A model generated the notes under the pieces. The model worked only from the letters and a program-made list of their open reading frames with translations. It did no database searches and was not told the origin of the DNA. Positions 6,799 to 55,436 of a stretch of DNA of 64,000 nt are shown here, piece by piece. Origin of the DNA: Bartonella massiliensis (lineage in GTDB: Bacteria; Pseudomonadota; Alphaproteobacteria; Rhizobiales; Rhizobiaceae); the NCBI RefSeq assembly GCF_902150025.1, contig NZ_CABFVS010000001.1:1-64000 (forward strand), in the 5' to 3' direction. The number at the start of each line of letters is the position of its first letter. Position 1 is the first letter of the stretch. The position numbers and the translations under genes are program-made.

Positions 6799-6905
6799 TA
6801 TCTTGGTCCTGTTTTATCTGAATAATCATGTTAAGTACATTTATTGACAGATCAATATTTATTTTCCTAACATAATGAATATGAAGTGCGTTAAAAAATA
6901 TTATT

Positions 6906-15780: not shown

Positions 15781-15864
15781 AAATATTACTTTTCTGTTGT
15801 TATTAAACGAATAGGAACCCAATGCTTTCTCATATACTATAAGGAAAATATATAAAATATCTTT

Positions 15865-16365
15865 CTATTTATTATTTTTTTCCGAGAAAATGCAACAGCC
15901 AAGTTTGTAAAGTGATTGGCGTAAGCTTTTATCTTCAATTCCTTCAAGCATTTTTTCCACGCATTTTTTATCCTGTTCACTCAAAATCGGCTTGAAAGAC
16001 ACATGCTTCATAAAAATCGACATACTCCTTTGCTCAATCTTGATACGATCAACAGCAATATAGCCAAAAAATCCATTAATTCTATGAAGCAATTCCTCTG
16101 TTTCATGCATCAATTTTAACGCAGAAAATCCTTCACATGCAACAATAAGTGTTGCTGGCTGAAAAACTTCATCTTGATCCGCGTGACGTTTCCAAATAAT
16201 TTTAAGGGGCATTGTATGTTCACTGATATCATAGCCCGCAATTTGTGGCCAATGCTCTATTAGCGCGACATTGAGCCCTGTCCGTTTGCGTAAAACTGGA
16301 TCAAGTATTTTGAATACCGTCTCAGAAAGAGAATGAAAAGCATGTTTTTTTAGTTGTTTTCTCAT
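15865..16365 (-). CDS. DUF721 (DciA-like) protein
   Basis: A 166-residue DUF721 protein. The conserved N-terminal DciA-like region is visible in LDPVLRKRTGLNVALIEHWPQIAG followed by the H-TMPLKI segment. Distant relatives of this family (DciA) load the replicative helicase DnaB. The ATG at 16365 is chosen; an in-frame TTG at 16395 would add 10 residues. It is divergent from mutY, an arrangement common in Rhizobiales. Confidence 0.82.
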   Translation of the reverse strand: MRKQLKKHAFHSLSETVFKILDPVLRKRTGLNVALIEHWPQIAGYDISEHTMPLKIIWKRHADQDEVFQPATLIVACEGFSALKLMHETEELLHRINGFFGYIAVDRIKIEQRSMSIFMKHVSFKPILSEQDKKCVEKMLEGIEDKSLRQSLYKLGCCIFSEKNNK

Positions 16366-16570
16366 CTTTAGATCATTGTTCAACTGTTTATCCAATTAAA
16401 ATCACTTGTTTCATCTAAAAAATATTTCTTTTCTAATTTATAAAATATCAACAAAATAGAAATTTGTCTCCTAACCAGAGCCTCGATAATAAAAGAACAA
16501 AAACACATGAATTCCCCAATAAATGCTTTTTTCTTTTGCATTTTACCTCTTCCTATGCTTGAAAACAATT

Positions 16571-39604: not shown

Positions 39605-39870
39605 ATATTATTTAATAAAGATCGTCTAGCGTTGTTTAACTTGAATGAAAACCTCGAACCGTAGAATTCTCTTATTTTAAATCTGTGTATATTGAAGCAA
39701 TAAAAATCATTGGTTTATATGCTATAAGCGAAGAGAGCTGTGTGGCGTGAAACTGTATAAGAAAAACATACCTTTCATGAATTCTTCCACATGCCAAAGG
39801 CCGTCATGATATTGCAAGGTAGTAAATATAAAGGTGGTATCGACTTGTTTAGGCCCCCTCAGACATATCT
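39605..39870 (+). pseudogene. Integrase leader and N-terminal relic, tandem with the intact copy
   Basis: Leader from 'taataaagatcgtctagcg', a decayed start near 39768 (catacctttcatgaattctt), and a match to the KYNDGAGL region (aatataaaggtggtatcgac). It lies directly upstream of, and in the same orientation as, the leader of the intact integrase. Confidence 0.65.
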
Positions 39871-39904
39871 TTTTCATAATATGTTCGTCTTTTGTGTGGC
39901 AACA

Positions 39905-40071
39905 CATTGATTTATAATGATAAATCATTCTTTTTCAACTTGAATCATAGCTCCGAATATAGTAAGATTCTTTCATCACAAACCCTCTCATATCGTATCA
40001 ATTAATATCACTTGCTTGCATGTCAAAAGCGGGGCTGGCGTGTGGGTAAAAACTATAGAAGAAAGGACTAA
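39905..40071 (+). promoter_or_regulatory. Leader/promoter repeat of the intact P4-type integrase
   Basis: About 165 bases that recur, with drift, in front of every relic of this integrase in the window. Conserved blocks are 'cattgatttataatgataa', 'cgaatatagtaagattcttt', 'atcaattaatatcacttgct', 'aaaagcggggctgg' and 'gaaaggactaaaa' just before the ATG. Conservation of the whole leader suggests that it contains the promoter and possibly the attachment site. Confidence 0.6.
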
Positions 40072-40073
40072 AA

Positions 40074-41255
40074 ATGCCTCTTATGAACCGTCTTAATGCA
40101 AGATCTGTCGCAACATTGGGGGCTGGCAAATATAATGATGGTGCCGGCTTGTTACTCCATAAGCGTAAAGATGGTGGTGCTCAATGGCTTTATCGTTATA
40201 CTATTCATGGGCGTCGTCGCGAAATGGGATTAGGCGCGTTGAGAAACGTCTCTTTAAAAAAAGCCCGTGAATTGGCAAACCAATGGCGTTCTGTTTTACA
40301 TGAGGGTCGTGACCCTATTAAAGAACGTGAAAAACAAAAGCGTGAGGCAATAAGTAACCTCCATTATCTAAAAGACATTGCCTTAGATGCTTTTGAAAGT
40401 CGTAAAGCTGAATTAAAAGGAGATGGCAAGGCTGGGAACTGGTTTCTACCTTTACAACTTTATGTTCTCCCCAAATTAGGCTGTATTCCCATTTCAGAGA
40501 TTACCCAAACAGAGATACGCAATGTACTTGCTCCCATATGGCATACAAAAGCTGCAACAGCAGAGAAAGCAATAAATCGTCTTAATCTTTGTCTCAAACA
40601 CGCTGCTGCATTAGGATTGGATGTTGATTTACAAGCAACAATAAAAGCACGCGCTCTGTTAGGGAAGCAACGCCATAAAGCACAAAATTTACCTGCAATG
40701 GATTGGAAAGATGTGCCTGCCTTTTATCAGTCACTCTGCAAAACAACAACCATGACACAACTGGCTTTGCGTTTACTTATTTTGACTGGTGTTCGTACTC
40801 GCCCTTTGCGTTATATGCGTGAAGATCAGATTGATGGGGATATATGGACTATCCCTGCTGAAAGTATGAAAGGACGACGCGATGCTACAGAAGAATTTCG
40901 CGTTCCTTTATCATCAGAAGCACTAAAAGTGATTAAACAAGCACATCTGCTTTCTCGTAATGGTTTTCTTTTTTCTGCAACCGGTCGTGGTCCTCTTGCA
41001 CAAAACAGCATGCTACAATACATGAAAAAAATTGGTCTGGAAGCTTGTCCCCATGGTTTTCGCTCTAGTTTACGCGATTGGCTCGCAGAAACAACCGATG
41101 CTCCTTATGAGGTCGCAGAAACCATTCTAGGTCATACGGTCGGGGGTAAAGTGGAACGTGCCTATCGTCGTACAGATTATTTAGAACAGCGTCGCATCTA
41201 TATGGATAAATGGGCTTCTTATGTCACTGGTCAAAACAATAAAAGTTGTGGATAG
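40074..41255 (+). CDS. P4-type tyrosine integrase of the genomic island
   Basis: A 393-residue integrase with an N-terminal Arm-DNA-binding domain (GLLLHKRKDGGAQWLYRYT, MGLGALRNVSLKKARELA), a core-binding domain, and a C-terminal tyrosine recombinase domain: Arg in TGVRTRPLRYM (about residue 240), HGFRSSLRDWLAE, ILGHTVGGK and Tyr in AYRRTD (about residue 363). It is intact, unlike at least ten decayed relatives in this window. An ATG at 40083 (MNRL) is also in frame. It probably mobilised the island to its right. Confidence 0.94.
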   Translation: MPLMNRLNARSVATLGAGKYNDGAGLLLHKRKDGGAQWLYRYTIHGRRREMGLGALRNVSLKKARELANQWRSVLHEGRDPIKEREKQKREAISNLHYLKDIALDAFESRKAELKGDGKAGNWFLPLQLYVLPKLGCIPISEITQTEIRNVLAPIWHTKAATAEKAINRLNLCLKHAAALGLDVDLQATIKARALLGKQRHKAQNLPAMDWKDVPAFYQSLCKTTTMTQLALRLLILTGVRTRPLRYMREDQIDGDIWTIPAESMKGRRDATEEFRVPLSSEALKVIKQAHLLSRNGFLFSATGRGPLAQNSMLQYMKKIGLEACPHGFRSSLRDWLAETTDAPYEVAETILGHTVGGKVERAYRRTDYLEQRRIYMDKWASYVTGQNNKSCG

Positions 41256-41430
41256 CTCTATCTCTTTTTTCATATTTAATCCATAATGAATAGTATAATC
41301 ACAAATTATGGCTTATTTTGAATAAAAAATCACAAGATATTGTTTTTTTGCTGGAAAAGTTTGCTACGAATTGCTATTTATATATAGCAAATTGATGCTG
41401 ATTCGATCATTTAAATAGAGAGGGGATTCC

Positions 41431-41631
41431 GTGATTCCAAATGAACCACTTCTCACGGTACGTGAGAGTGCAAAAATACTTAATATAAGCGTTTCAACAC
41501 TTTGGCGGCGGGTCGCTGATGGCTCGGTGCCAAAACCTTTAAAGATTGGTTCCTTAGCGCGTTGGTTAAAATCCGACCTTGACGACGTAATCGAAAAGGC
41601 AAAAAACCAACGCAGCAACGACGCCGCCTAA
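41431..41631 (+). CDS. AlpA-family helix-turn-helix regulator / excisionase
   Basis: A 66-residue DNA-binding protein. The MerR-like/AlpA winged helix is clear: LTVRESAKILNISVSTLWRRVADGS followed by PKPLKIG and RWLKSDLDDVI. In P4-like elements AlpA activates integrase expression or excision. A GTG start follows GAGAGGGG. It lies 175 bases after the integrase. Confidence 0.9.
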   Translation: MIPNEPLLTVRESAKILNISVSTLWRRVADGSVPKPLKIGSLARWLKSDLDDVIEKAKNQRSNDAA

Positions 41632-41706
41632 AGAAAACTTCGCCTTATAGGACAGACAAAGTATTTCGACTTTCACAAATCCTGAAATAACAGAATCTGT
41701 CCTGTA

Positions 41707-42660
41707 ATGCAAGTAGCAGGAAGGGATTTTATGCATTTTACAAATGCTACAACAAGCAATGCTTATGCATTGCATACAACAGCTCGAAAAATTACTTGTG
41801 CATTACGTGGAGTTTGGCATGGACGTTATGGAACAGCCCGTTGCCCTGCTCATGATGATAGGCTGCCTAGTTTATCCATTACCAATGGACTTGATGGGCG
41901 TCTTTTACTCTATTGTTATGCCGGTTGCTCTTTTAGAGAGATCATACAAGCGCTTAGAAGAATTGGCTTGCTGGAGAAACAAGCCTTTGTTGATAAAACT
42001 TATGATCATACGCTTTCTTTCTCAAAACAGTTTTGTGCTGATTTCAAAAGAGCAAAACAGAAAGCAGAAAGAGCAAAAAAGATTTGGCAACAAAGTCAAC
42101 CGATCAAAAATACTTTAGCAGAAACCTATTTACGCATGCGGGGGCCCACATGTGAATTGCCTGCTGATTTACGTTTTCACGATAAATGTCCACATCCATT
42201 AGGAATGACACTGCCCGCGTTGGTGGCTCTTGTTAAGGGGGCTGGCTCTTTTGCCATTCATAGGACCTTTTTAAAAGCCAATGGCTGCAAAACAGATCAG
42301 AAACCAGCCAAAGCCATGTTGGGTTCTGTCATGGGCGGTGCTGTGCATTTAAGTCAAGACAATCCCAAACATCTGGTTATTTGTGAAGGCATTGAAACGG
42401 GGCTGTCTCTGCTGTCTGGATTGTTATCAGAGCCCGTGAATGTATGGGCGTCTCTTTCTACCAATGGCATGATGCGTGTGAATTTACCCCCGATAAAAGG
42501 GCGTCTGACAATTGCAATGGATGGCGATGATGCGGGTCGTAAAGCAGGTTTTACCCTAGCAAATCGTGCTTATAGACAAGGCTTTGAGGTCTTTATGATG
42601 CAAGCCCCAAAAGGAATGGACTTTAATAACGTATTAGTTTCTAGAGAAAGGAAAATATGA
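41707..42660 (+). CDS. Toprim-domain primase-like protein
   Basis: A 317-residue protein. The N-terminal CHC2-like zinc finger has ligands in RCPAHDDRLPS and YCYAGCS. The C-terminal Toprim domain has the glutamate in HLVICEGIETGLSL and the DxD-type motif in AMDGDDAGRKAG. This architecture is typical of primases of phages and satellites. Its stop overlaps the next start (ATGA), indicating translational coupling. It is probably part of the island's own replication module. Confidence 0.9.
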   Translation: MQVAGRDFMHFTNATTSNAYALHTTARKITCALRGVWHGRYGTARCPAHDDRLPSLSITNGLDGRLLLYCYAGCSFREIIQALRRIGLLEKQAFVDKTYDHTLSFSKQFCADFKRAKQKAERAKKIWQQSQPIKNTLAETYLRMRGPTCELPADLRFHDKCPHPLGMTLPALVALVKGAGSFAIHRTFLKANGCKTDQKPAKAMLGSVMGGAVHLSQDNPKHLVICEGIETGLSLLSGLLSEPVNVWASLSTNGMMRVNLPPIKGRLTIAMDGDDAGRKAGFTLANRAYRQGFEVFMMQAPKGMDFNNVLVSRERKI

Positions 42661-44264
42661 AAAATAGTAATTTACAACACAATAATAAAACTGCTCCCGT
42701 TAATGATAACGATCATGCCTTTTTAAATGATAATACTTGTTTAAAAGCTATTCCTTATGAACAAGCCTTGCAACAAAACGGTTGGGGGGAATTACAGTCT
42801 ATTGATAAAGCTCTTTTACCCGTCGAGCCTTTTAAAGTATATCTGCTCCCAACACCATTAATAGACTATGTTTATGACGTTTCTGATATGCAACAATCTT
42901 CTATCGACTTTGTTGCTATCTCTGCTTTATGCGGTTTGGCTGCTGTTATTGGAAATGGCGTGCGTATCGCTCCAAAACAATATGCCAATTGGGAAATTGT
43001 TCCTAATCTCTGGGGCGCCATTGTGGGGCAACCTTCAACCATGAAAACACCTACCATGGAAGCTGCTTTAGCCCCTCTCTATGCTTTTCAAGAGGAATGG
43101 CATCAAGAATGGATAAAGCAGAAAAAACAGCAAGAAACAAAAGATATTCTGATTGAATTAGACAAGAGAGAAAAGAAAAAACAAGCCTACAAAGCACTCA
43201 AAGATCAAGACGAGGAACACGCCCTTGCTCTTCTTTCTCAAGCTCTTGAACACAAAGAAAGTGACGATGATGACACGCTTAATAAACGACGTCTTATCGT
43301 CAATGATGTCACGGTCGAAAAGCTTGGGGAATTGTTAAAAGAAAACCCCCGTGGTCTGTTGTTGGTTCGTGATGAATTATCTGGTTTTTTAACCAATCTA
43401 GAAAGAAAGGAATATCAATCAGACCGTTCTTTCTATCTAACAGCTTTTAATGGCAATAAGCCATATACCTATGACCGTATCGAGCGTGGAACCATTCATA
43501 TTCCTAATGCAACTCTTTCCGTTATTGGGGGCATTCAACCTTCACGAATTATTCCAGTCATTCAAGCAATGCACCGTGGAATAAACGATGATGGTTTATT
43601 GCAACGATTTCAAATGCTAGTTTTTCCCGATGAACGAAAAGAACGTGAATGGGTTGATAAACCTTTCAAGCAAAAGGCATGGGAAAATTATCAAGAAGTC
43701 TTTCGTTCTCTTTACGATAAACCTTTAGGATCACCAAAACACCCCATTACCATACGTTTTTCTGCCGAAGCCCAAGAGATGTTTCGTGAATGGTGGGAAA
43801 ATTTTCAAAAAACAACCAAAGGGGAAAATTTCTCCGAAAGTTTACAAGCACATCTCTTGAAAATGGATAAAACCATACCAACCCTTGCGTTGATTTTTGA
43901 ACTGTGCGAAGGGGGGCGTTTTGAAATCAATAGAAATGCTCTTGAGAGAGCTTTGTATTGGGAAAAATATCTGATAAGTCACGCAAAACGCCTTTATGCG
44001 GCGCATGATACATTAATAGCAGAGCGTGCAAAATTAATTGTTGAACGCTGTGATTATTTACCCGATGGTTTTACTTCACGTGATGTTTATAAACGTAATT
44101 GGAAATGTTTAAAGGACAATGGAACAGTTAAGCAAGCTTTAGAGCTTTTATGCTGTTGTAACTATATTCGTGAAATCTCTGGAGACAATAACTCTCAAGG
44201 CGGTCGACCTACCATACGCTATGAATGGAATCCTTTAATAAAAAGTCATAAAACAACACAATAG
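42657..44264 (+). CDS. DUF3987 domain protein (helicase-like replication partner)
   Basis: A 535-residue DUF3987 protein. After a variable N-terminus (about 75 residues), a RecA-like region holds the Walker-A-like loop GQPSTMKTP and a Walker-B/sensor region LLVRDELSGFL. A long charged helical insert (residues about 150-205) is present. DUF3987 proteins commonly accompany Toprim primases in satellites and are thought to act as helicases. The overlap with the primase gene supports a joint function. Confidence 0.88.
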   Translation: MKNSNLQHNNKTAPVNDNDHAFLNDNTCLKAIPYEQALQQNGWGELQSIDKALLPVEPFKVYLLPTPLIDYVYDVSDMQQSSIDFVAISALCGLAAVIGNGVRIAPKQYANWEIVPNLWGAIVGQPSTMKTPTMEAALAPLYAFQEEWHQEWIKQKKQQETKDILIELDKREKKKQAYKALKDQDEEHALALLSQALEHKESDDDDTLNKRRLIVNDVTVEKLGELLKENPRGLLLVRDELSGFLTNLERKEYQSDRSFYLTAFNGNKPYTYDRIERGTIHIPNATLSVIGGIQPSRIIPVIQAMHRGINDDGLLQRFQMLVFPDERKEREWVDKPFKQKAWENYQEVFRSLYDKPLGSPKHPITIRFSAEAQEMFREWWENFQKTTKGENFSESLQAHLLKMDKTIPTLALIFELCEGGRFEINRNALERALYWEKYLISHAKRLYAAHDTLIAERAKLIVERCDYLPDGFTSRDVYKRNWKCLKDNGTVKQALELLCCCNYIREISGDNNSQGGRPTIRYEWNPLIKSHKTTQ

Positions 44265-44351
44265 GCAATCTGGATATCTTATAAAACATTAAACCCTATA
44301 ACCTTGTATTATCGAAGAGAGCCTTCAAAGCATTCCGCATCTATTGGTTTT

Positions 44352-44544
44352 GGGGGTTTTGGGTGTTCTTTTTACACCCCTTCTATATATTTTTTAAATC
44401 AAAAATAAAAGTTATTATATTTCAATATGTTAATGTTTTAAATAAACAACCTATATTAAACACAACACGTAAATACAATCTTTAATATATATTTAAGAGG
44501 GTTTTGTAGGGGTTTTGGGTGTTTTAAACACCGTCAAAACCTAT
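44352..44544. repeat. 193-bp inverted repeat, left copy
   Basis: An exact inverted copy of 50116-50308 apart from one base (C at 44532 against T in the complement of the right copy). The element has GGGGTTTTGGGTGTT near each end, at 44353-44367 and 44509-44523, in direct orientation and 156 bases apart. They flank an AT-rich core ('caatatgttaatgttttaaa'). Short palindromes at the edges include GTGTTTTAAACAC. Confidence 0.95.
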
Positions 44545-44825
44545 CTATTAAATTCGTGATAAAATGCTTTAAAATAATCATTATGATATTTTAAAAGAAC
44601 GTATTGCATCTGTCTTGATTAACATATCAAACGATAAGCAAATTTCACTATTTTGCTGATCTGATCTTTCTCATAGGCTGTGGATAAGTCCCTTTAAAAA
44701 CACCATTTTGAAAAAATTTATCCATTTTTTCGCATTTTTCTACATTTTTTTCTCAATTCACTCAAAATGGATTTAATAAGCTTCATTTCGATTCTTTTGA
44801 AAAGAATTGACCATATCATACCAAA
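44545..44825. other. AT-rich region upstream of the restriction-modification gene
   Basis: About 280 bases between the left inverted repeat and the type ISP gene, with T-rich runs near 44730-44760. It must hold its promoter unless transcription reads through from the replication genes. Confidence 0.4.
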
Positions 44826-47800
44826 ATGGAGCTCTGTTGTAATATGCTGCAATCTATTAAGTCTGATCATGAACAAGTCACTCTACGCTCTCTGTTGGAC
44901 TATTATCGTAAACGAGCAAAATCACCCCGTGAATTGGGAACTCTGTTTGAAAATCTTGTGAAGGATTATCTGTCTGAAGACCCCTTGCAAAAGCAAGAAT
45001 ACGAAAAGGTTCAAACTTATTTGGAATGGGCTGGGGAGCATGATGAAGATGGGCGTGATATTGGCATTGATCTGGTCGCTACAATCCGTGATGACGGAGG
45101 CTATGCGGCTATTCAATGTAAATGCTATGATGCTTCTCACATCATTAAAAAAGAAGATATTGATAGTTTTATCGCTGCCTCTGGGAAGAAAATATTCACA
45201 CGTCGCATATTGGTTGATAGCACTGAAAGCAATTGGAGTGATAATGCGAACAACACATGTGATGGTCAAGAAGTTCGTATTCAACAGATTAATCTGTTTG
45301 ATTTAGAAAACAGTCAAATTGATTGGGGGGCTTATAAAGAAAGAGGACAAGCCGTCCTTAAAGAGCAACCGAAAAAAAAGCTTTTAGATCATCAAAAGGA
45401 AGCACTGAAAGATGTCTGTGAAGGTTTAACAGAAGCAGACCGTGGCAAGCTGATTATGGCATGTGGTACGGGGAAAACGTTTACTAGTTTGAAGATAGCA
45501 GAAACTCTCGCCGGAAAAGGCAAGCGTGTGTTGTTTTTAGTGCCTTCTCTTGCTTTGATGTCACAAACGATACGCGAATGGACCATTGATACAGAAATTC
45601 CTTTACGTTCTTTTGCGGTATGTTCTGATACACAAGTAGGAAAACGTCGTAAAGGGAAACATGATGATGAATCTGGTCTCGATGCTTCTGATCTTGTTTT
45701 ACCCGCTACCACGGATTCACAAGAGCTTGCACGTAAAGCCAATAAAACCTCTCTTGATGTGATGACCGTCATCTTTTCAACCTATCATTCCATTCAAGTG
45801 ATTTCGGATGCACAAAAGGATTATGGGTTACCCGAGTTTGATCTGATTATTTGCGATGAAGCTCATAGGACGACGGGGGTTGTATTGGGAACAGACAAGC
45901 ATGAATCTGAATTTATCAAGGTTCATGACAACAGCATCATTGGCGGCAAAAAACGTCTATATATGACAGCAACGCCTAAGATCTTTGCTGACAATGCTAA
46001 AAAACAAGCTCATGAAATGAATGGCATTCTGGCGTCTATGGATGATGAAGCGCTTTATGGAAAAGAGCTTTACACCTATACATTCTCAAAAGCCGTCCAG
46101 AATGAACTCTTAGTCCCTTATAAGATTATTATCTTGGGTGTTAATGAAGAAGAAGTGAGTGAATCCATTCAACATCTGATGACCGATGAAAATTATGAAC
46201 TTACCCTTGATGATAAGACTAAGATTATAGGCTGTTATCAAGCTCTGAGTAAAATAGATCTGAAAGTTGATTTGAGTGATGACCCTAACCCTATGCGGCG
46301 GGCTTTGGCTTTTTGTAAAGATATCAAGACCTCTGAACGTATCCGTGATACATTTAACTCTCAAGAAATCCAGAAAGAATTATTAAATCTTCATAAGCTC
46401 TATAAAGAGACACCGCCTCTTCAGTGCACCTTTGCGCATATTGATGGAACACAAAGTGCCAAGAAACGCAATGAAGCCCTTGATTGGTTAAAGGAAGATG
46501 CGGGGGAGCATGCGTGTCGTGTGTTGACCAATGTGCGCTGCCTATCTGAAGGTGTCGATGTTCCTGCTCTTGATGCGATTATGTTTTTACACCCGCGCAA
46601 AAGCCAAGTGGATGTGATACAGGCGGTGGGGCGTATCATGCGTCGTTCCAAAGGCAAGAAGAGAGGTTATATCATTTTACCCGTTGGGGTACCTGCTGGG
46701 GTTTCTGCTGAAGAGGCTTTAAAATACAACAAGAGATACAGTGTTGTCTGGCAAGTGATCAATGCGTTGCTTTCCCATGATGAGAATTTTGAAGTAACCC
46801 TTAACCAGATGATTTTAGGTCAAGACGTCAGTCATACTTTAGAGATTGCTGCCTTAAAGAGTATGACGACGGTTGAAGATAAACTCCATGTTTATGAGAA
46901 ACCAGAAAGCACGGGTCTTGATATTGGAAAAGCAGCCTATGAACCACAAAAATACATTCATAGCGTAACCGGAAGATTACCCTTTTATAAAGAGTTTCCT
47001 AATGCCCTTAAAACTCTTCTGGCTAAGAAATTTACCCTTGCGGATTATTGGGGCATATGGGCTGGCAATGTTGCTGAGATTGCGCAAAATCATATCAATC
47101 ATCTTAAAGATATCCTATCCGATGAAAGCAGTGAAGCCTATCATGCTTTTGAGAGCTTTCATAAAGAACTAAAAAACAACTTAAACAGCGACATCAAACA
47201 AGAAGAAGCTCTAGAGATGTTAGGACAACATCTTGTAACGCGCCCCGTGTTTGAAGCTTTGTTTGATGGCAATGAATTTGTGCAAAACAATGCCATTTCT
47301 CAAGCGATGGAAAAGATCTTAGCTGAGTTGGATAAAACCAATATCCAGCAAGTCTCTAAAGAATTACAAGAGTTTTATGACAGTGTAAAATTCCGTGCCT
47401 CTGGAATTACAACCCCCCAAGCAAGACAGAACCTTATTATCAAACTTTATGAAGACTTTTTTACCAAGGCATTTAAGAAAACCACGGATAGGCTTGGAAT
47501 TGTTTATACCCCCGTTGAGGTTGTTGATTTTATCATTCACTCTGTTGATGATGTTTTACGCAATGAATTTGGCAAAAGTCTAGGATCACGGGGTGTTTCT
47601 ATTCTCGACCCTTTTACAGGTACTGGAACCTTTATCACACGGTTGTTACAATCAAATCTCATCAAACCAGAAGATATGGAATATAAGTTCCGTCATGATA
47701 TTCATGCTAATGAGATTGTCTTGCTCGCCTATTACATAGCCGCGATTAACATTGAATCGACCTATCATAGTCTTATGAAAGGTGATTATATCCCATTCAA

Positions 47801-49808
47801 GCATATTGGTTTAACCGATACGTTTCGAATGCTTGAAGAGAAAGATCTTATGGAAGGTATACTCAAAGAAAACAGTGAATATTTAGAACATCAAAAGAAA
47901 CTGGATATCAAAGTTATTTTTGGTAACCCTCCTTATTCCATAGGACAAAAAAGTGAAAATGATAATAATGCTAATATAACCTATATTGCACTTGATACAA
48001 GAATTCGTAATACATATGCATCAAGATCTCAAGCAACACTAAAAAGAAATCTGTATGATAGTTATATCCGTGCTATCCGCTGGGCTAGTGACCGTATAAA
48101 AGACCGTGGTGTTATTGGTTTTGTTACAAATGCAAGTTTTGTAGATGCAAACGCTATGGCTGGCTTACGAAAATGCCTCGTTGAGGAATTTAGCAGCCTT
48201 TATATTTTCCATTTACGGGGGAATGCACGAACGTCTGGAGAGCAGCGTAAAAAAGAAAGTGGGGGAATTTTTGGTGAGGGATCTCGAGCCCCTATAGCTA
48301 TTTCCATTCTTGTAAAAAATCCAGAATCTGAACAACGTGGCAAGATATATTTCCGTGATATTGGAGATTATCTTAAAAGAGAAGAAAAACTTACGATAAT
48401 TGAATCCCTTGGAAGCATTGATGGCATCACACGGAGTGAACAAGGTTGGAAAATAATTACACCAGATAAGCACGGTGATTGGATCAATCAACGTGATGAA
48501 AGTTTCAAATCATTTTTAGTGTTAGGTGATAAAAAGGTTGGTAATAAAAAGCTTTTTGATACTTTTTCTTGTGGTATTGTAACAAGTCGTGATGCATGGG
48601 TTTATAACTCAAGCCGTGAAGCTTTAGCGAAAAATATGAAATCTATGATCACTTTTTATAATAGTGAAGTGGAGCGTTTTAATGATACTTATGCACATGC
48701 TGAACGTAAATCACGTGTAAAAGTTGTAAATGATTTCGTAAATTCAGATGTGAAAAAAATTAGTTGGAGTTTTAGTATTAAACAGCAATTAATTAGAGGA
48801 AAGGTTTTTGACTTTGAAGATACATGCCTTATGCAAAGTTCATATCGCCCTTTTACACAACAATGGCTCTATTATAATCATACCTTTAATGAAGCAATTT
48901 ATCAAATGCCGCGTATATTCCCAATAGGGCAAGCGGTTGATAATAAGGTGATACAACTTACAAGTACAGGAGCAACAAAAGACTTTTCTGTCATCATGAT
49001 TAAGAAAGTACCTGATTTTCATGCAATAGATACTAGCCAATGCTTTCCACTATATATTTATGAAGATGTTACAGCCTTAAAAGATAATAATCAGTCTTAT
49101 TTATTTACGAATTCTATAGAGAAAAGCAAAAATACTGGTTTACAGAGGCGTGATGCCATTACTGATGAAGGACTAGACCATTTTAAAGCTACTTATCCGA
49201 ATGAAAAAATTACTAAAGATGATCTATTCTATTATGTTTATGGGATCTTACATTCGGAAGATTATCGTACCCGTTATGCTGATAATCTCTCTAAAGAATT
49301 ACCTCGTATCCCTTGTGTAAAGAGTGCTGATGATTTTTGGAAATTTGTTACAGCAGGGCGTGAACTGGGTCATTTGCACGTAAATTATGAAGATGTAGAG
49401 CCTTATCCAGTGACCTTTAAAAAAGGCAATCCAAAACAGACAGATATTTCTAATCCAGAAGAATTTTACCACGTTAAAGAAATGAAATTCGCAAAAGTTA
49501 AGAATAGTAAGGAAAAGGATAAAACAACAGTTATTTATAACAGCAATATCATCATAACAGATATCCCTCTTGAAGCTTATGAGTATATCGTAAATGGTAG
49601 ACCCGCCCTTGAATGGGTTATGGGTCGTCAATGTGTAAAGACTGATAAAAAGAGTGGTATTGTGAATGATGCCAATCGCTATGCTGTTGAGACCGTTGGA
49701 AACCCTGCATACCCTCTAGAATTGTTTCAAAGGGTTATTACCGTAAGTTTAGAGACAATGAAAATCGTGAAAAAACTACCAAAATTAGAAATTAAAGAAA
49801 CTGAATAA
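44826..49808 (+). CDS. Single-chain restriction-modification enzyme, type ISP architecture
   Basis: A 1660-residue fusion. In order: an Mrr-like nuclease (about residues 25-160; D in DGRDIGIDL and the QCK of AAIQCKCYD), an SF2 helicase/translocase (Walker A MACGTGKTF near 212, DEAH in IICDEAHRTTG near 341, motif VI QAVGRIMRRSKG), a helical coupler, a gamma-type N6-adenine methyltransferase (DPFTGTGTF near 928, NPPY near 1033), and a C-terminal target-recognition region (about 1090-1650). This is the layout of type ISP enzymes such as LlaGI/LlaBIII, which restrict foreign DNA and protect their own by one-strand methylation. All catalytic motifs are intact. A second ATG at 44844 is possible. 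Confidence 0.93.
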   Translation: MELCCNMLQSIKSDHEQVTLRSLLDYYRKRAKSPRELGTLFENLVKDYLSEDPLQKQEYEKVQTYLEWAGEHDEDGRDIGIDLVATIRDDGGYAAIQCKCYDASHIIKKEDIDSFIAASGKKIFTRRILVDSTESNWSDNANNTCDGQEVRIQQINLFDLENSQIDWGAYKERGQAVLKEQPKKKLLDHQKEALKDVCEGLTEADRGKLIMACGTGKTFTSLKIAETLAGKGKRVLFLVPSLALMSQTIREWTIDTEIPLRSFAVCSDTQVGKRRKGKHDDESGLDASDLVLPATTDSQELARKANKTSLDVMTVIFSTYHSIQVISDAQKDYGLPEFDLIICDEAHRTTGVVLGTDKHESEFIKVHDNSIIGGKKRLYMTATPKIFADNAKKQAHEMNGILASMDDEALYGKELYTYTFSKAVQNELLVPYKIIILGVNEEEVSESIQHLMTDENYELTLDDKTKIIGCYQALSKIDLKVDLSDDPNPMRRALAFCKDIKTSERIRDTFNSQEIQKELLNLHKLYKETPPLQCTFAHIDGTQSAKKRNEALDWLKEDAGEHACRVLTNVRCLSEGVDVPALDAIMFLHPRKSQVDVIQAVGRIMRRSKGKKRGYIILPVGVPAGVSAEEALKYNKRYSVVWQVINALLSHDENFEVTLNQMILGQDVSHTLEIAALKSMTTVEDKLHVYEKPESTGLDIGKAAYEPQKYIHSVTGRLPFYKEFPNALKTLLAKKFTLADYWGIWAGNVAEIAQNHINHLKDILSDESSEAYHAFESFHKELKNNLNSDIKQEEALEMLGQHLVTRPVFEALFDGNEFVQNNAISQAMEKILAELDKTNIQQVSKELQEFYDSVKFRASGITTPQARQNLIIKLYEDFFTKAFKKTTDRLGIVYTPVEVVDFIIHSVDDVLRNEFGKSLGSRGVSILDPFTGTGTFITRLLQSNLIKPEDMEYKFRHDIHANEIVLLAYYIAAINIESTYHSLMKGDYIPFKHIGLTDTFRMLEEKDLMEGILKENSEYLEHQKKLDIKVIFGNPPYSIGQKSENDNNANITYIALDTRIRNTYASRSQATLKRNLYDSYIRAIRWASDRIKDRGVIGFVTNASFVDANAMAGLRKCLVEEFSSLYIFHLRGNARTSGEQRKKESGGIFGEGSRAPIAISILVKNPESEQRGKIYFRDIGDYLKREEKLTIIESLGSIDGITRSEQGWKIITPDKHGDWINQRDESFKSFLVLGDKKVGNKKLFDTFSCGIVTSRDAWVYNSSREALAKNMKSMITFYNSEVERFNDTYAHAERKSRVKVVNDFVNSDVKKISWSFSIKQQLIRGKVFDFEDTCLMQSSYRPFTQQWLYYNHTFNEAIYQMPRIFPIGQAVDNKVIQLTSTGATKDFSVIMIKKVPDFHAIDTSQCFPLYIYEDVTALKDNNQSYLFTNSIEKSKNTGLQRRDAITDEGLDHFKATYPNEKITKDDLFYYVYGILHSEDYRTRYADNLSKELPRIPCVKSADDFWKFVTAGRELGHLHVNYEDVEPYPVTFKKGNPKQTDISNPEEFYHVKEMKFAKVKNSKEKDKTTVIYNSNIIITDIPLEAYEYIVNGRPALEWVMGRQCVKTDKKSGIVNDANRYAVETVGNPAYPLELFQRVITVSLETMKIVKKLPKLEIKETE

Positions 49809-49929
49809 GCTTATTAAGGTATGCTCATATAATGGGTATGCTATCTTATAAGGGGTATAGAGTCTTATAATCATAATCTATACTTCTTTTATTAAGTTAA
49901 TTAGATACAATCTTAAAAGGAGTGTTTAT

Positions 49930-50070
49930 ATGTGTTCTTCTAAAAAGAAATCATTTGCACTTTTAAACACCCTTATTTGTATTGCTTTAAGACTTATAAG
50001 AAATCCATTCTTAAATAGAATACGCTTCTTTTGGATTACCTTTAAAAGGTTATACCGTAATCTCAAATGA
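49930..50070 (+). CDS. Small basic peptide ORF (46 residues)
   Basis: An ATG with an excellent Shine-Dalgarno (AAAGGAG, 7 bases upstream) opens a 46-residue frame that is rich in Arg and Lys. The hydrophobic-basic segment (LLNTLICIALRLIRNPF) could form an amphipathic or membrane helix. No family is recognised. It sits between the restriction enzyme and the right inverted repeat, so it may be part of the same cargo. Ribosome-site quality is the main support. Confidence 0.5.
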   Translation: MCSSKKKSFALLNTLICIALRLIRNPFLNRIRFFWITFKRLYRNLK

Positions 50071-50115
50071 TAGCTTTATTGTTTTCATAAGCTTTGTTTA
50101 AAGAGAATTTTATCT

Positions 50116-50308
50116 ATAGGTTTTGACAGTGTTTAAAACACCCAAAACCCCTACAAAACCCTCTTAAATATATATTAAAGATTGTATTTACGTGTTGTGT
50201 TTAATATAGGTTGTTTATTTAAAACATTAACATATTGAAATATAATAACTTTTATTTTTGATTTAAAAAATATATAGAAGGGGTGTAAAAAGAACACCCA
50301 AAACCCCC
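50116..50308. repeat. 193-bp inverted repeat, right copy
   Basis: The reverse complement of 44352-44544 with a single mismatch. Together the two copies bracket the type ISP gene and the 46-residue ORF. Near-identity over mostly non-coding, AT-rich DNA implies recent duplication, gene conversion or functional constraint. Confidence 0.95.
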
Positions 50309-50439
50309 TAAACCTCCAAAACTCATAACCATAATAATTTTAATAGCATTTCTTATGATTATACCCCCTTTCTATTGAAAGGCTTTAAAGGATCACATGC
50401 TTTCATAAGACATGTTTTAATCACTCACTAAAATGATCA

Positions 50440-50628
50440 CTTTTGTCAGTTCAATTTACTGACACATAACTGACATATATATATTATGGATTGAATTTAT
50501 GGTTGTGTTGTCGATATAGGTTGTATCATTAAAATGCTAATATATTGAAATATAATGTTTTTAATTTTCTCTCATTTAAAAAAAAAAATAATAGAGGGTC
50601 TAGAGTTAACTGACAGCACTGACAAAAG
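50440..50628. repeat. 189-bp diverged relative of the inverted-repeat element
   Basis: The AT-rich core is recognisably related to the right repeat, in the same orientation ('gatataggttgt' and 'aatatattgaaatataat'). The ends differ: an 11-bp inverted repeat CTTTTGTCAGT / ACTGACAAAAG at the outer edges, and several further ACTGAC copies inside. The size is nearly the same as the 193-bp elements. Confidence 0.8.
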
Positions 50629-51139
50629 TCTATTAAAAGGGATTTTGCTCATCTCTATAGTTATCAATCTCTCTTTAGATGTTTTCATAACAAGCTATAA
50701 ATCACAATTATCCTATTTATAATCTCTCTTATGAAAATGAAAAATGATGCGGTGGCTATAAAGCAGATAAGAGCTATAGAGAATGCGTGAAAAAAGCAGG
50801 TTTTATAATCAAAATGCAAATGAAAGCATTGGTTATAAAGACAGTTCCTATAAAAATCTGTTAAGTTGCAAATGTGTTATTAAAAGAAATTAACAGAAAT
50901 CTTTAAAACCATTTAGTAAAAAACAAGATAGGTTATAAAGTTAAAAATACGCATGATGAGAGCGTTTCTAAATATTATAAATGTATAGATTCAAAAAATA
51001 ACGCAATCGCTTAATAAAGCCCATAATATATCTTTAAAAGCACATAATACAAAAGAAGAAATTAATAAGCATATGATAAATATTTATACACAATGCATTA
51101 AAAAAATCATAAAAAATATCAAAAAAGATAAAATATTAT
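50629..51139. other. AT-rich gap
   Basis: About 510 bases with no credible gene. Short frames lack ribosome sites. Confidence 0.4.
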
Positions 51140-51168
51140 TTGACAATAAATACGTATTTTGTTATATA
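51140..51168 (+). promoter_or_regulatory. Strong promoter with palindromic operator
   Basis: TTGACA (51140-51145), 17-base spacer, TATATA (51163-51168). The spacer contains the perfect 12-bp palindrome AAATACGTATTT (51148-51159), well placed for a repressor that would block RNA polymerase. It drives the beta-solenoid gene cluster. Confidence 0.7.
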
Positions 51169-51169
51169 A

Positions 51170-51418
51170 ATACTCAAGTGATCAAAACACTAAACTACTA
51201 GCGAATAGGTTACGAAATAACCTTTCCAAAGTATTTAAAATACTAATTGTCTTTTATGCTTTTATTAGTATATAGAGATTTTTGTCGGGTGTAGTTACAC
51301 CATACAATACTCTTTTATGAGAAAAGTGTAACAACGGACTAGTAGCCGTGTTTTGAGCGCCCGGCGCCTTTATAGGCTGTCAATTTCAAAACTTTTTAAA
51401 CTACTAGGAAATATTCCA
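51170..51418 (+). promoter_or_regulatory. Long structured 5' leader of the beta-solenoid cluster
   Basis: About 250 nt between promoter and start codon, with several hairpins: AGGTTA/TAACCT (51207-51223), AGTATTT/AAATACT (51230-51244), TACTAAT/ATTAGTA (51241-51247 with 51264-51270) and GGTGTA/TACACC (51288-51301). Hairpins two and three share 51241-51244 and cannot form together, as in attenuators. It ends with a GC-rich GCGCCCGGCGCC and an RBS (AGGAA). Confidence 0.55.
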
Positions 51419-51910
51419 ATGAAAAAATACGAATTTACGAATGAAACTAAGATTATTGAAGGATTTACCTTACATCGCATTAAAGCCATTAGAGATTTTG
51501 CTGATATCAAAGCAGGTACTTTAGGTGGCTTTATTGAAAGTGAAGATAACCTTTCTCATAATGGGAATTGCTGGGTTGGTGATAATGCTTATGTTGTAAA
51601 AACTGGTCGTGTTTATGAAAATGCAAGGGTTTTTGGCAATGCTGGTGTTGGTGGCTATGTATATGGTAATGCCAAGGTTTATGATTTTGCCAAGGTTTTT
51701 GCTCATGCTCATGTTTATGATAACGCTCAGGTTTTTGACAGTGCAAAAATTATCAGTCATGTGCATATTTATGAAAATGCTTGTGCTTATGGCATGGCTA
51801 TTGTCACTAAAAATGCCTTTGGTGATACAAGAGAGAATGTTTATACAGAACGCCTTTCTCCTTATGGTGAGATCTCATTTGTGATGTGTAGGCCCATAAT
51901 AAAGCAGTAA
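51419..51910 (+). CDS. Beta-solenoid (hexapeptide-like repeat) protein, copy 1
   Basis: A 163-residue protein. The N-terminal module (about residues 1-60: KKYEFTNET, RIKAIRDFADIKAGTLGG, NLSHNGNCWV) is followed by about ten six-residue turns of the type V-Y-G-N-A-x (VFGNAGVGGYVYGNAKVYDFAKV), predicting a left-handed or related beta-solenoid. The short C-terminal tail is unique. Similar proteins occur in prophages and satellites with unknown function. ATG at 51419 is chosen for its AGGAA site; an upstream in-frame start at 51353 lacks one. Confidence 0.85.
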   Translation: MKKYEFTNETKIIEGFTLHRIKAIRDFADIKAGTLGGFIESEDNLSHNGNCWVGDNAYVVKTGRVYENARVFGNAGVGGYVYGNAKVYDFAKVFAHAHVYDNAQVFDSAKIISHVHIYENACAYGMAIVTKNAFGDTRENVYTERLSPYGEISFVMCRPIIKQ

Positions 51911-51919
51911 TAAATAAAC

Positions 51920-51940
51920 GCGGGCGCGGCGGGGGCGCCC
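51920..51940. repeat. GC-rich hairpin spacer, copy 1
   Basis: A 21-base GC-only string identical to the one at 52781-52801. Arms GGGCGC and GCGCCC form a stem around a G-rich loop. It is followed by 'ctctttaaaacatt', which is also shared. It stands out sharply in AT-rich surroundings. Confidence 0.85.
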
Positions 51941-52000
51941 CCTCTTTAAAACATTTCATTTCATTTAAAAATTTATCGAATATTAGATTAGGAGTTACCT

Positions 52001-52774
52001 ATGACCAGTACAATTGTATCTAAAAAATATGAATTTACTAATGAAAGTTTCACTTTTGATGGGATTACTTTATACCGCATTCGTGCTTTAAGAGATTTTG
52101 ATGATGTTAAAGCCGGTTCTTTAGGCGGCTTTATTGAAAGTGAAGATAACCTTTCTCATAATGGGAATTGCTGGGTCTATGATAATGCTGCCGTTCTTTT
52201 GAATGCAACTGTTTATGAGAATGCTAAAATTTATAAGGAAGCTAAAATCTTTAGAGGTGCAAAGGTTTATGGCAATGCTATCATAAATGGAAAAGCTTTG
52301 GTTTTTGATACAACCGCTCATATTTATGAAAATGCAAAAATTCATGATAACGCTAGGGTCTGTGGCCATGTTTATGGCAATGCCGTGATCAGTGATAATG
52401 CTACCATTTCTAATGATGCCTATGTTTATGACAATGCGCATGTTTATGAAAGTGCTCATGTTTGTGGCTATGTTTTTGGCAATGCTTGTGTATATGGCAA
52501 GTCACGTATTTATGTCTTTGCACGGGTTTATGATAATGCCCATGTCTTTTGTAATGCTTGGATTAAGAATTGTTCTAGTATCTATGGCAATGCTAGGGTT
52601 TCTGGCTCGGCGCGTGTTGGTTGCTTTGTGAGAATTTATGATGATGCCCATGTATATGGTAAATCCAATATTGATCATCACGTGCAAATCTATGGCAATG
52701 CTGTTGTGAATAGCGGTGCAAAAATTCGTAATGATATTTGTGATAATGATCAGTCTATAAAAGACGTTGCTTAA
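52001..52774 (+). CDS. Beta-solenoid (hexapeptide-like repeat) protein, copy 2
   Basis: A 257-residue paralogue of copy 1 with the same N-terminal module (KKYEFTNESFTFDGITLYRI, KAGSLGGFIESEDNLSHNG) and about twice as many repeat turns (YENAKI, YGNAII, HDNARV, YGNAVI and so on, up to about residue 240). RBS AGGAG precedes the ATG. The DNA encoding the N-terminal module is near-identical to copy 1 over about 60 bases, indicating recent duplication or conversion. Confidence 0.87.
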   Translation: MTSTIVSKKYEFTNESFTFDGITLYRIRALRDFDDVKAGSLGGFIESEDNLSHNGNCWVYDNAAVLLNATVYENAKIYKEAKIFRGAKVYGNAIINGKALVFDTTAHIYENAKIHDNARVCGHVYGNAVISDNATISNDAYVYDNAHVYESAHVCGYVFGNACVYGKSRIYVFARVYDNAHVFCNAWIKNCSSIYGNARVSGSARVGCFVRIYDDAHVYGKSNIDHHVQIYGNAVVNSGAKIRNDICDNDQSIKDVA

Positions 52775-52780
52775 ATAACA

Positions 52781-52801
52781 GCGGGCGCGGCGGGGGCGCC
52801 C
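52781..52801. repeat. GC-rich hairpin spacer, copy 2
   Basis: The same 21-base GC-only string as 51920-51940, again 7-10 bases after a solenoid-gene stop codon and followed by 'ctctttaaaacatt'. Confidence 0.85.
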
Positions 52802-52868
52802 TCTCTTTAAAACATTCTATTTCAAATTTTATCCAATGTTTATCACATTAGATTGTGAGGGTATCCTT

Positions 52869-53639
52869 ATGTCTAAAAAATATGAATTAACCAATCAAAT
52901 AAAACAAATTAAAGACAGATTAACAAAACAAATGACAAACCTTTATCGCATTCGGGCTTTAAAAGATTTTGATGATGTCAAGACTGGCGATCTAGGTGGC
53001 TATATCGAAAATGAAAGCAACTTATCACACTATGGCAATTGCTGGGTTTATGATGAGGCTCTTGTCTATGGCTATGCTCATGTTTCTGATCATGCTAAAG
53101 TAAGGCATCTTTCTCATGTGCGGGGGCGTGTCTATGGCAATGCTGAGGTTTATGGCAAGGCTGTAATCACTCGATATGCGAAAATTTATGACCATGCTTG
53201 TGTCTATGACAGTGCTCATGTCGCAGGCAATATTTATGGCAATGCGCATGTGAGTGGTGGCGCCCGCGTTTATAGCAATTCCCATATTTATAATCATGCG
53301 CGCGTTTCTCATAATGCTTTTGTTTATGATCATGCAAGGATCTATGGTCATTCAAAGGTTTCTGGGTCTGCTTGTATTTACAGCAGTGCAAAAATTTATG
53401 GACAAGCTGCTATCAAAGGCTTTGCAAAGATTTATGGCAAGGTCTATGGCAATGCGATTGTGAGTGGTCGTGCCGCGGTTTATGGCTCTGTTTATGGGAA
53501 TGCAAAAATCTCTGGTTATGTCAAAGTCTGGGGTCGTGCCTATGGAAGAGCAAAAATAGATACACAAAGTAAGATAAAATTGGTTCCTGATAATTATGAG
53601 GTCTATAAAAGCGATGAGGTTGTAAAGATTGAGAAATAA
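52869..53639 (+). CDS. Beta-solenoid (hexapeptide-like repeat) protein, copy 3
   Basis: A 256-residue paralogue. The N-terminal module is more diverged (SKKYELTNQ, RALKDFDDVKTGDLGGYIE, NLSHYGNCWV). The repeat region spans about residues 60-235, with turns such as YGNAEV, YGKAVI, YSNSHI and YGRAKI. The ATG at 52869 is chosen because GAGGG lies just upstream; an ATG at 52836 lacks a site. A terminator follows about 95 bases downstream, closing the cluster. Confidence 0.86.
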   Translation: MSKKYELTNQIKQIKDRLTKQMTNLYRIRALKDFDDVKTGDLGGYIENESNLSHYGNCWVYDEALVYGYAHVSDHAKVRHLSHVRGRVYGNAEVYGKAVITRYAKIYDHACVYDSAHVAGNIYGNAHVSGGARVYSNSHIYNHARVSHNAFVYDHARIYGHSKVSGSACIYSSAKIYGQAAIKGFAKIYGKVYGNAIVSGRAAVYGSVYGNAKISGYVKVWGRAYGRAKIDTQSKIKLVPDNYEVYKSDEVVKIEK

Positions 53640-53734
53640 AACAAATAATAGTGTGTGAGTGCCTTCTTTATGGCTATAAACGCATTATAAAATACATTGT
53701 TTAAAACGTATCATAAAAAAGAGAATTCAAAAAG

Positions 53735-53767
53735 AAAGCCGTGCCAAGTGATATGACGCGGCTTTTT
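53735..53767 (+). terminator. Rho-independent terminator of the solenoid cluster
   Basis: Stem AAAGCCG (53735-53741) with CGGCTTT (53759-53765), followed by T residues. The loop is about 17 bases. Confidence 0.7.
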
Positions 53768-53784
53768 AACGGAGGTATGTAAAA

Positions 53785-53886
53785 ATGATTCATACAAATG
53801 AAATCAATAATGAATGCCTATATACAAAACGTATCATATTGCAAGCGCTTTATTGTCTTTATGAAAACTTATCAAAAGAACCTTAA
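53785..53886 (+). CDS. Small ORF (33 residues) with strong ribosome site
   Basis: GGAGGT lies 8 bases before the ATG, an almost ideal site. The peptide (MIHTNEINNECLYTKRIILQ... ending NLSKEP) matches no known family. It comes directly after a terminator, so it would need its own promoter or read-through. Confidence 0.45.
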   Translation: MIHTNEINNECLYTKRIILQALYCLYENLSKEP

Positions 53887-55436
53887 ATGATGGCTATAAT
53901 TTTGATAGCATGCATTTGAATGAGAGAGTGAATTTAGAGCCTATAAACGCTTTTATGACTATCAAACGTATTAATCATAACGCCCTTTTCTTTAAAGAGA
54001 TTCATTTGAAATAAAGCACATTGTCAAAACGCTTCTTTAAAACGTTTTAATATGCTACTAAGCTCAAAATTGAATTGAGTAAATTGAAATAAATGACATT
54101 CTAAAATCAAATTTATAAAACAAATCAAAAGCAAATATGTATTAAGTGAAATGTCTATAACAAAACCCGTTTTTAATATTTACAAGCGTTGGTTTTTAAA
54201 AGCAGCTTTTCATAAGACAAATAAACAAATGCTTTTTTTATAGAATGTAAAGATTTCAAGATTTGCTCTGCTATAAAATCTAGATCTTTGTTTTTTCGTA
54301 AATGAAACGTTCTTAAGAGAAAATGATAACTAAGTGATAACTGTTATAAAAAGTGTTTTAAACGTTTCTTATAAAGATCTCATTTTATGTTTCAAAGTTT
54401 AAACATTCACTTAAAGAGGTTCTCATAAGCGTATTTTAATTTTGCACTCAAACATAATTTCTTTGCAAATTAACCAGCTCAAATTTGATCTCGTTATCTT
54501 TAGATAAAGCATTCTTTAAACATTATAGCTTTTGACTCAAAATTGAGTAAAATCCTATGTATTGAGATTACAACGGTTTTGAATTTTGCTTGCTTATCTT
54601 TGTCTTAATAGGTGCCCCCATTTGACTTTGTATTTTTAAACGATAACTTTTAAAACGTTTTTTGATAGCTTGCTTGCATACGTCAAAAAAGGCTTTTGAT
54701 TTCATAAGATATAACGTTTTGAATTTCATAGTTGTTATAATGCATGATGGTAGTGTCTGTATAATTATCTGCCTATCATTTTCTAAATTTTTAGAAAGCG
54801 CTTTAAAAACGATTTTGTCTTTAAATCTTTTTATGCGCCTTTAATGAATGAAAACCTATAAGCTTATAACAGTTTCAAACGATTATTCCTTTTAAGTTTC
54901 GCTCAAAAAAGAGCAAAATACATACCATTCTTTAAACGCATGAAATTATGTTATCGATAATTTAAAACGACTAAATTTTAAAACAATGCGATTTTTGAGT
55001 GATAAAAACGTATCATAAAATTTATAAACTGTTATGAATGATAGCTGCTTTTCATTTCATTCGAATACACACATGCGTTATAATATTTACATCATGATTT
55101 GCTTTTTATGCTCTATTCATACGTGACAATCTTATATAAAAAATGGTCAAATGAATCACGTATAAAAGTGTGGATTCCTAAGTGGATTCATATAAAATAA
55201 ATTCACATAAGATACTGAATTTACTATGTTTTTATGCAATAAATGTTTCCTTTGTGTGGAGTAACACTGTTTTTTATATTTCATAATAAAAAATCTCAAA
55301 TAAAAAAGCTTCCGATATTTCGTGTTCTTCATTCCATGAGAAAAAAGTCATTATTATCGATAAATTTTGGAGATATTTTTATAATAATACTCAACGAGAC
55401 TTTAAAAAATCTTCATGGCGTAAAAAAAACTTCAAG
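53887..55436. other. Gene-poor right end of the island
   Basis: About 1.5 kb, AT-rich, without a convincing gene. The string AAAACGTATCAT occurs here (near 55005) and also near 53703 and 53825, with looser relatives (AAACGTATTAATCAT near 53963). It may be a decayed island end. A 65-residue open frame at 55243-55440 lacks a ribosome site. Confidence 0.45.

Follow-up and report, generated by a model that had tools for sequence, protein, structure and literature searches.

The near-perfect inverted repeats that enclose a type ISP restriction-modification gene in a 64,000-nucleotide stretch of Bartonella massiliensis DNA (contig NZ_CABFVS010000001.1, positions 1 to 64,000; hereafter the window) would be copies of an origin-like module belonging to a satellite-like integrative island. 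The upstream copy, named U, lies directly behind a gene for a helicase with the Pfam domain of unknown function DUF3987 and is most likely a replication origin, as judged from its sequence and from its likeness to known islands; its class is predicted by a short segment in the C-terminal domain of that helicase. As a whole, the reading in which U is an origin matched to the helicase, and two inverted copies behind the restriction gene (D1 and D2) are further modules, is in our judgement a likely one. The initial annotation of this DNA had left three options, namely a moron-type insertion cassette, an invertible segment that would switch the orientation of the restriction gene, and duplicated replication or regulatory sites. 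The evidence favours the last of these for U, which would make the system an island initiator with a 3′ origin, whereas for D1 and D2 it extends only to their origin-like build. The features concerned are:

41707..42660, + strand: Toprim DNA primase (PF23639, PF13362; phrog_510)
42657..44264, + strand: DUF3987/YfjI helicase, proposed replication initiator (PF13148, E 1e-80; phrog_2373)
About 44004-44246, + strand: winged-helix-like C-terminal domain of the helicase (AlphaFold2 model, Foldseek, covariation)
44091-44093 and 44097-44099, + strand: key helicase residues K479 and N481 (covariation with U class)
44346..44555, + strand: U, proposed origin, class G (iterons around an AT-rich core)
44348-44357, 44357-44366 and 44513-44522: iterons of U; 44530-44539: inverted iteron
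44679..44687, - strand: DnaA-box-like site TTATCCACA (consensus match, spacer survey)
44826..49808, + strand: type ISP restriction-modification gene, 1660 aa (PF18135, PF22240, PF13156, PF04851, PF02384)
50105..50314, - strand: D1, second origin-like module, class G, 98% identical to U
About 50441..50624, - strand: D2, third, diverged module, class S (GTCAGT iterons)

The description of the arms by the initial annotation was confirmed. Over 193 positions, the segments 44352-44544 and 50116-50308 are reverse complementary but for a single mismatch, and the match can be extended to 44346-44555 and 50105-50314 (210 nt, 98%); the BLAST E-value between the arms is 1e-100, so their likeness is not due to chance. 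The 193-bp arms are indeed AT-rich (26% G+C), each carries TTTTGGGTGT at both ends with a spacing of 156 bp, and together they enclose the type ISP gene and a 46-codon open reading frame (ORF), while the diverged third copy, D2, had been overlooked. The spacing, noted before as about 15 helical turns, is close to constant among the GG-class arms (155-158 bp in 18 of 21 measured) but is not a general rule, since the AA-class arms (25 measured) have 135-151 bp in 20 of the 21 cases listed. A search for the element outside the island, which had been proposed earlier, gave 11 matches in the genome itself, namely the inverted pair, the third copy and 8 others, all of the latter weaker than the inverted pair; for 7 of these 8 the contig also bears a type ISP gene or fragment. 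The repeat is present in 40 of the 71 Bartonella genomes searched. Both arms of the window also contain a GGGTGT-ACACCC hairpin with a T tail, terminator-like by prediction, which is mostly missing from the arms of other classes among those listed and is for this reason not treated as the function of the module. No known RNA was found by an Rfam scan of 39800-55400 at the gathering score.

Match between the helicase and U

A relative of the type ISP protein is encoded at 76 loci, which by their names belong to Bartonella, and the survey of modules covered 82 full-length type ISP units. Ten of these are repeat fetches, which were kept in the counts of position, homology pairs and codirectionality and left out of those of arm alignment, iterons, classes, flanks, ORFs, identity, U presence and DnaA boxes. 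In the aligned arms the AT-rich core is conserved and the ends are variable. The ends carry 10-mers of the form TTTTG-NNN-GT, mostly direct on the left and both direct and inverted on the right, by which the arms were sorted into classes G (GGN), A (A[ACG]G) and S (TCA, with TCT, TCG and TTA counted here); arms covering fewer than about 100-120 profile positions were not classed.

A match to the module profile lies within 700 bp of 72 of the 81 distinct helicase 3′ ends, 70 of them in plus orientation, and 8 of the 9 helicase ends without such a match have at least one iteron, the ninth (L238) having none. Moreover, U is present in 40 of the 42 units with a helicase and in 5 of the 14 without (Fisher P 1e-5), counting the 56 units, duplicates excluded, whose upstream sequence reaches 3 kb or more. 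From 70 helicase-U pairs 3 uncallable ones were dropped, and in 62 of the remaining 67 the class of U agrees with the C-terminal segment of the helicase, this set being made distinct by sequence and not by relatedness, so that it includes close relatives, and the class rules being fixed after inspection of the data with classes A and C merged. The segment reads YKRD or YKRN with class G, YRRC (once YRQC) with class S, and HQR or LQR with class A, and residue 479 corresponds to the iteron as K to GGN, R to TCA and Q to ANG. The highest covariation with U is found at K479 (1.21 of 1.57 bits) and N481 (1.09), followed by residue 509 in the wing (1.05), and K479 and N481 outrank residues of the protein tail that lie closer to U.

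The part of the helicase preceding the domain could be compared in the 29 of the 67 rows with enough sequence there. On its best tree the class of U needs 10 changes against a mean of 13.0 after shuffling, and the well-supported branches force fewer. Where two helicases are at least 80% alike before the domain and their U classes differ, the domain type differs too in 53 of 56 pairs, which are not independent of each other.

Evidence for U as a probable origin

A DnaA-box-like site with at most one mismatch occurs in 45 of 51 spacers between U and the type ISP gene (23 perfect), but in only 3 of 58 spacers between that gene and D1; of 54 stretches following the last D module one has such a site, and no perfect copy is found in either group. 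From its consensus the site beside U is presumably a DnaA box. The C-terminal domain of the helicase model has the order of helices and strands of a winged helix, and the only three Foldseek hits with E below 0.001 are all MCM (minichromosome maintenance) complexes; the sequence search of the PDB gave one match, with E 0.47. We infer from these data that the helicase binds U and that replication starts there. The winged-helix-like domain would bind the TTTTG-NNN-GT iterons, the helicase would melt the AT-rich core or be loaded at it, and the Toprim primase, host DnaA and the replisome would then take over. D1 and D2 would be inverted modules of like build, devoid of the DnaA-box-like site and often of another iteron class.

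In the Staphylococcus aureus pathogenicity islands (SaPIs), the iterons flank an AT-rich stretch, and Rep and origin are mutually specific. According to the available text of PMC7581432, the C-terminal domain of the SaPI Rep helicase, which belongs to the DUF927 or Primase_Cterm/D5 families, recognises iterons directly downstream of its own gene, and that of Cch2 from the staphylococcal cassette chromosome SCCmec binds three short direct repeats just 3′ of its gene, a putative origin. The iterons around an AT-rich core behind the helicase gene, with the primase gene ahead, thus give the window a likeness to the replication modules of both elements; as in a SaPI, an island with a primase and a helicase has iterated short sites directly 3′ of the helicase gene. 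There are also differences. The only Pfam match of the helicase at E 1e-3 is PF13148 (DUF3987), which places it outside the Rep families, and the islands studied here differ from SaPIs in having up to three modules, of which two lie in inverted orientation past the restriction gene and often differ in class, and a DnaA-box-like site. Cch2, as far as the available description goes, differs in having a primase-polymerase partner, a D5-type helicase and one site, with no class system described.

In P4-like satellites, one primase-helicase binds two separate iteron regions, ori and crr. The island in the window, unlike these, has separate genes for primase and helicase, and downstream modules that often do not match in class. 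P4-like satellites also carry defence hotspots (PMC9122126, in the part available). The phage-inducible chromosomal minimalist islands (PICMIs) of the Vibrionaceae are, in the accessible text of PMC10803314, minimal satellites with an integrase and a DUF3987 'primase', and they hold defence genes including restriction-modification between prim and fis. The integrase, the DUF3987 gene and the restriction-modification cargo are common to PICMIs and the island; PICMIs are also defined by AlpA and Fis, beyond the three features compared here. The words 'iteron' and 'winged' are absent from the main text on PICMIs. As for the genus itself, the available account of the fha-repeat islands of Bartonella grahamii describes neither origin-like modules nor initiator matching.

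Distant helicases were compared in addition to the linked pairs. All six distant HQ-type helicases of Bartonella, which had not been used for the rule and whose downstream DNA is not recognised by the profile, have TTTTGANGGT 50-120 bp downstream, four of them twice; the six amount to about four distinct sequences, L279 and L280 as well as L239 and L240 being near-copies. Furthermore, a helicase on an Acinetobacter plasmid (L305), 32% identical, has R at the place of residue 479 (FRKNW), and TTTTGTCAGT occurs three times at no more than about 50 bp from its stop codon. A type ISP gene lies near it, so the association of this gene with a DUF3987 helicase is not confined to Bartonella. Wider searches gave a match in 3 of 249 genomes at order level, one of which is that of the window, in 12 of 385 genomes of the class sample and 15 of 398 of the phylum sample (the window's own included in each), and 6 distant matches in phage records.

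Thirty DUF3987 loci outside Bartonella were examined, of which one ran off its end. The repeated 9-mers in the 200 bp behind the helicase gene were scored against windows of the same locus and against 200 shuffles, and 17 of the 29 remaining loci score above 95% of their own windows, 12 of them above all; 17 also exceed every one of the 200 shuffles. The TTTTG 10-mer is present in at least two copies at 8 of the 29 loci. Among the repeated forms, the R-type loci L305, L308 and L324 have TTTTG followed by TCAGT, L289 by GCACT and L331 by TCGGT, the Q-type L307 has AGGGT, and the V-type L328 has ATGGT. Single full copies are all at R-type loci, with TCAGT in L309, L312, L325 and L334 and GCACT in L327. 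Since L325 and L334, L310 and L318, and L308 and L319 each share one genome, the loci are not all independent.

Several observations speak against the initiator-origin reading. Five of the 67 pairs disagree (L253, L255, L249, L047 and L245). The helicase frame of L249 is full-length (534 aa) and those of the other four are below 250 aa; such short frames also occur in 8 of the 27 matching pairs with a measurable frame. Among pairs with less than 70% likeness in the part preceding the domain, a difference confined to U is seen in 19 and one confined to the domain type in 9. Part of the match could be due to tight linkage, as the specificity segment lies about 250 bp from U, and a reading by linkage alone is countered by the ranking of the residues and by the distant homologues. 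The AlphaFold2 model is modest (mean pLDDT, the predicted local distance difference test, 67; residues 441-530 mostly 76-88, wing 56), and the best three Foldseek hits have template modelling (TM) scores of 0.33-0.37 to the model at 10% identity. The residues with the strongest covariation occupy the final part of the second helix and the turn after it, and a further group is found in the wing; since the canonical recognition helix is not where they lie, they are called only a specificity segment. Outside Bartonella, 12 of the 29 loci fail to exceed the 95% mark, 4 have a score of zero and 12 do not surpass their best shuffle. The R-type L311, whose alignment is doubtful, breaks the rule with TTTTG followed by CAGTT; other repeats or none are found at the R-type loci L290, L310, L314, L317-L319, L322, L323, L332 and L333, and no TTTTG-type sites at the Q-type L321 and the V-type L326. 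On plasmid pBT01 the module adjoins a repC gene, so that U need not be the origin of that plasmid. Finally, the arms of the window come from a draft of 90 contigs, and short-read assembly can make repeats overly alike; the arms on pBT01 (L176, 0.995) are just as alike.

The modules behind the restriction gene

Of 78 units whose upstream sequence is 600 bp or longer, 63 have U as a plus copy ahead of the type ISP gene, typically at a distance of 280-490 bp; D1, a minus copy, follows the gene in 68 of 80 units, typically at 250-550 bp, and a second minus copy, D2, exists in 39 of the 68 units having D1. None of U, D1 and D2 was seen in the opposite orientation among the units surveyed. U occurs in every class, 45 of 58 D1 modules are AA or GG, and in 32 of 34 D2 modules both ends belong to class S. 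When U and D1 of one island are compared, the outer ends are of the same class in 15 of 41 islands (14.0 expected) and the inner ends in 13 of 37 (12.6 expected), and with class sharing at chance level the matched inverted pair is not a maintained feature of these islands. The median identity of U and D1 is 0.586 (n=46, 20-bp flanks included).

The almost perfect pair in the window appears to have another cause. The core of its D1 is that of U, with the U-type indel and both GGGTGT ends, and D1 has in common with the U of the window a base found neither in the orthologous U of L165 nor in the other D1 copies compared; another base of this kind is shared by U and D1 and occurs also in the D1 of L163. 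Nevertheless, D1 retains flanks of the D1 type, as in L163, on both sides. A U core within D1 flanks points to gene conversion and not to a single flip, and by its sequence D1 looks to have been homogenised by U. More generally, the identity of U and D1 of the same class has a median of 0.938 within islands (n=17) and of 0.751 between islands (n=886), and 0 of 2000 permutations gave so high a value. The near-perfect identity here is thus explained by U and D1 being of the same class and D1 having probably been converted by U.

Any function of D1 and D2 we likewise infer. They may titrate or answer the initiators of co-resident islands, or limit copy number; the last could come about by pairing with U when the classes match, and they could also let the initiators of other islands act here. 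It is possible, if on balance doubtful, that D1 and D2 are instead functionless relics, that is, origins of other islands brought here by inverted fusions of neighbours. Such fusions exist, as in L167, where two islands that share an arm are fused convergently, hybrid arms are found (6 of the 125 classed at both ends), and the independence of the D1 class from U would suit such an origin; relics would hardly be expected, though, at the mostly constant place in which D1 is found, nor would the uniform class of D2 and the mean conservation of 0.96 in the bin of its right iterons, even if its left iterons fall in a bin of 0.68.

It is improbable that all the modules are operators, on which the helicase or another protein of the island controls transcription of the restriction gene or its neighbours with no role in replication. 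Their fixed orientation, with U before the gene and D1 and D2 after it, would agree with this, and a binding specificity would yield the same covariation. However, the DnaA-box-like site stands beside U and hardly beside the D modules, repeats lie directly behind the helicase gene outside Bartonella too, the precedent of SaPI and SCCmec in the available text of PMC7581432 is one of replication, and promoter-like matches in the region are at shuffle level (31 found, 31.4 expected).

That recombination between the arms flips the restriction gene as an on/off switch we regard as highly unlikely. Near-identical inverted arms do flank the gene in the window, and the conversion of D1 indicates recombination of some sort between them, but in each of the 54 units (among 82) with a helicase in range the restriction gene points the same way as the helicase (assemblies only), the arms are dissimilar in most islands, and D1 of the window has kept both its inner and its outer flank. 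These data would be compatible with an even number of inversions, with inversion between U and D2, or with a rare state not represented in the assemblies.

A moron-type cassette or transposon-like unit with the repeats as its ends has scarcely any probability, in spite of the symmetrical repeats around one cargo gene and the many copies per genome, because in almost every one of the 16 island pairs shown homology runs beyond both arms, the insertion ends 4.4 and 4.9 kb outside the arms, arm classes within islands match no more than by chance, the arms remain where the restriction gene has been lost (L245), and six type ISP paralogues of about 60% identity without a helicase (L142, L150, L153, L156, L162 and L168) have no arms. 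The homology past both arms and the distant insertion ends indicate that the mobile unit is, by comparison of sequences, the whole island and not the stretch from arm to arm.

If the initiator-origin reading is right, the puzzling inverted repeat becomes a testable pair of initiator and origin, and a function is suggested for DUF3987. The islands would supply naturally occurring variants of initiator and site that match each other, and these could reveal how winged helices recognise DNA and inform on origin incompatibility and the competition of co-resident islands; the modules of other classes behind the restriction gene would make the interaction of mobile elements within one cell directly testable. 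In the literature searched, as far as its text was available, neither a residue-level match of a DUF3987 helicase with iterons nor a restriction gene set between origin modules of unlike class was found described, and the search gave nothing on Bartonella with type ISP, nor on YfjI with a replication origin. A wider proposal, which we put forward tentatively and hold to be unlikely, is that DUF3987/YfjI proteins are widespread self-loading initiators with a readable code at residue 479 (R-TCA, K-GGN, Q-ANG behind an invariant TTTTG), and that up to about 20 co-resident Bartonella islands form a network in which the restriction gene is framed by an origin of its own class and by modules of foreign class that sense, titrate or borrow the initiators of others.

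The island and its other genes

The remaining features are:

39891..55259, + strand: integrated island of about 15.4 kb in the tldD-rlmD interval (empty-site comparison, junction sequences)
40074..41255, + strand: tyrosine integrase (PF00589, PF13356, PF22022; phrog_1)
49930..50070, + strand: 46-codon ORF, kept at this place in many islands (100 tblastn matches)
51353-51910, 52001-52774 and 52836-53639, + strand: three related repeat-protein genes with 18-bp-periodic repeats

In 11 of 12 relatives tldD and rlmD are adjacent without an island, and in the twelfth the interval holds DNA resembling the integrase of the island; the empty site places the insertion between about 39.89 and 55.26 kb. 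A common 9-bp string, TTTGTGTGG, was chosen by eye at the junctions (39891-39899 and 55251-55259), and a search there for common strings of at least 10 gave nothing but an unrelated 10-mer. As a small integrated element with an integrase and replication genes, the island resembles a phage satellite in this part of its composition.

The type ISP protein is a single chain in which the Mrr nuclease, superfamily 2 (SF2) helicase, coupler, methylase and ISP specificity domains are all present. The paralogue L162 (G000:C4:5333-10255), which is among those lacking helicase and arms, has counterparts in several relatives, and a search for an inverted pair flanking the type ISP genes of the bee clade yielded none like that of the window. 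The product of the 46-codon ORF is basic and partly hydrophobic, a ribosome-binding-site-like AGGAG stands ahead of the ORF, and 29 of its 100 tblastn matches have an internal stop. The first repeat-protein gene has a YdcK_fam match below the cut-off and a match to phrog_5070 (function unknown); we take these genes to be of the kind called left-handed beta-helix. After two of them comes a 53-bp repeat (91%; 51911-51963 and 52772-52824), the first half of which is G+C-rich in an otherwise AT-rich island.

A few further loci have an unusual organization. In the convergent fusion of L167 (about 4860-16772), a type ISP gene is cut short and leads into the downstream module of the neighbouring island. 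In the deletion derivative L245 no type ISP match separates U, which accompanies a 3′ fragment of the helicase gene, from an inverted module. At L118 and L287 a tandem pair of DUF3987 helicase genes stands ahead of one type ISP gene. And one genome of 2.7 Mb (G027) contains 21 matches to the helicase C-terminus, an extreme load of islands.

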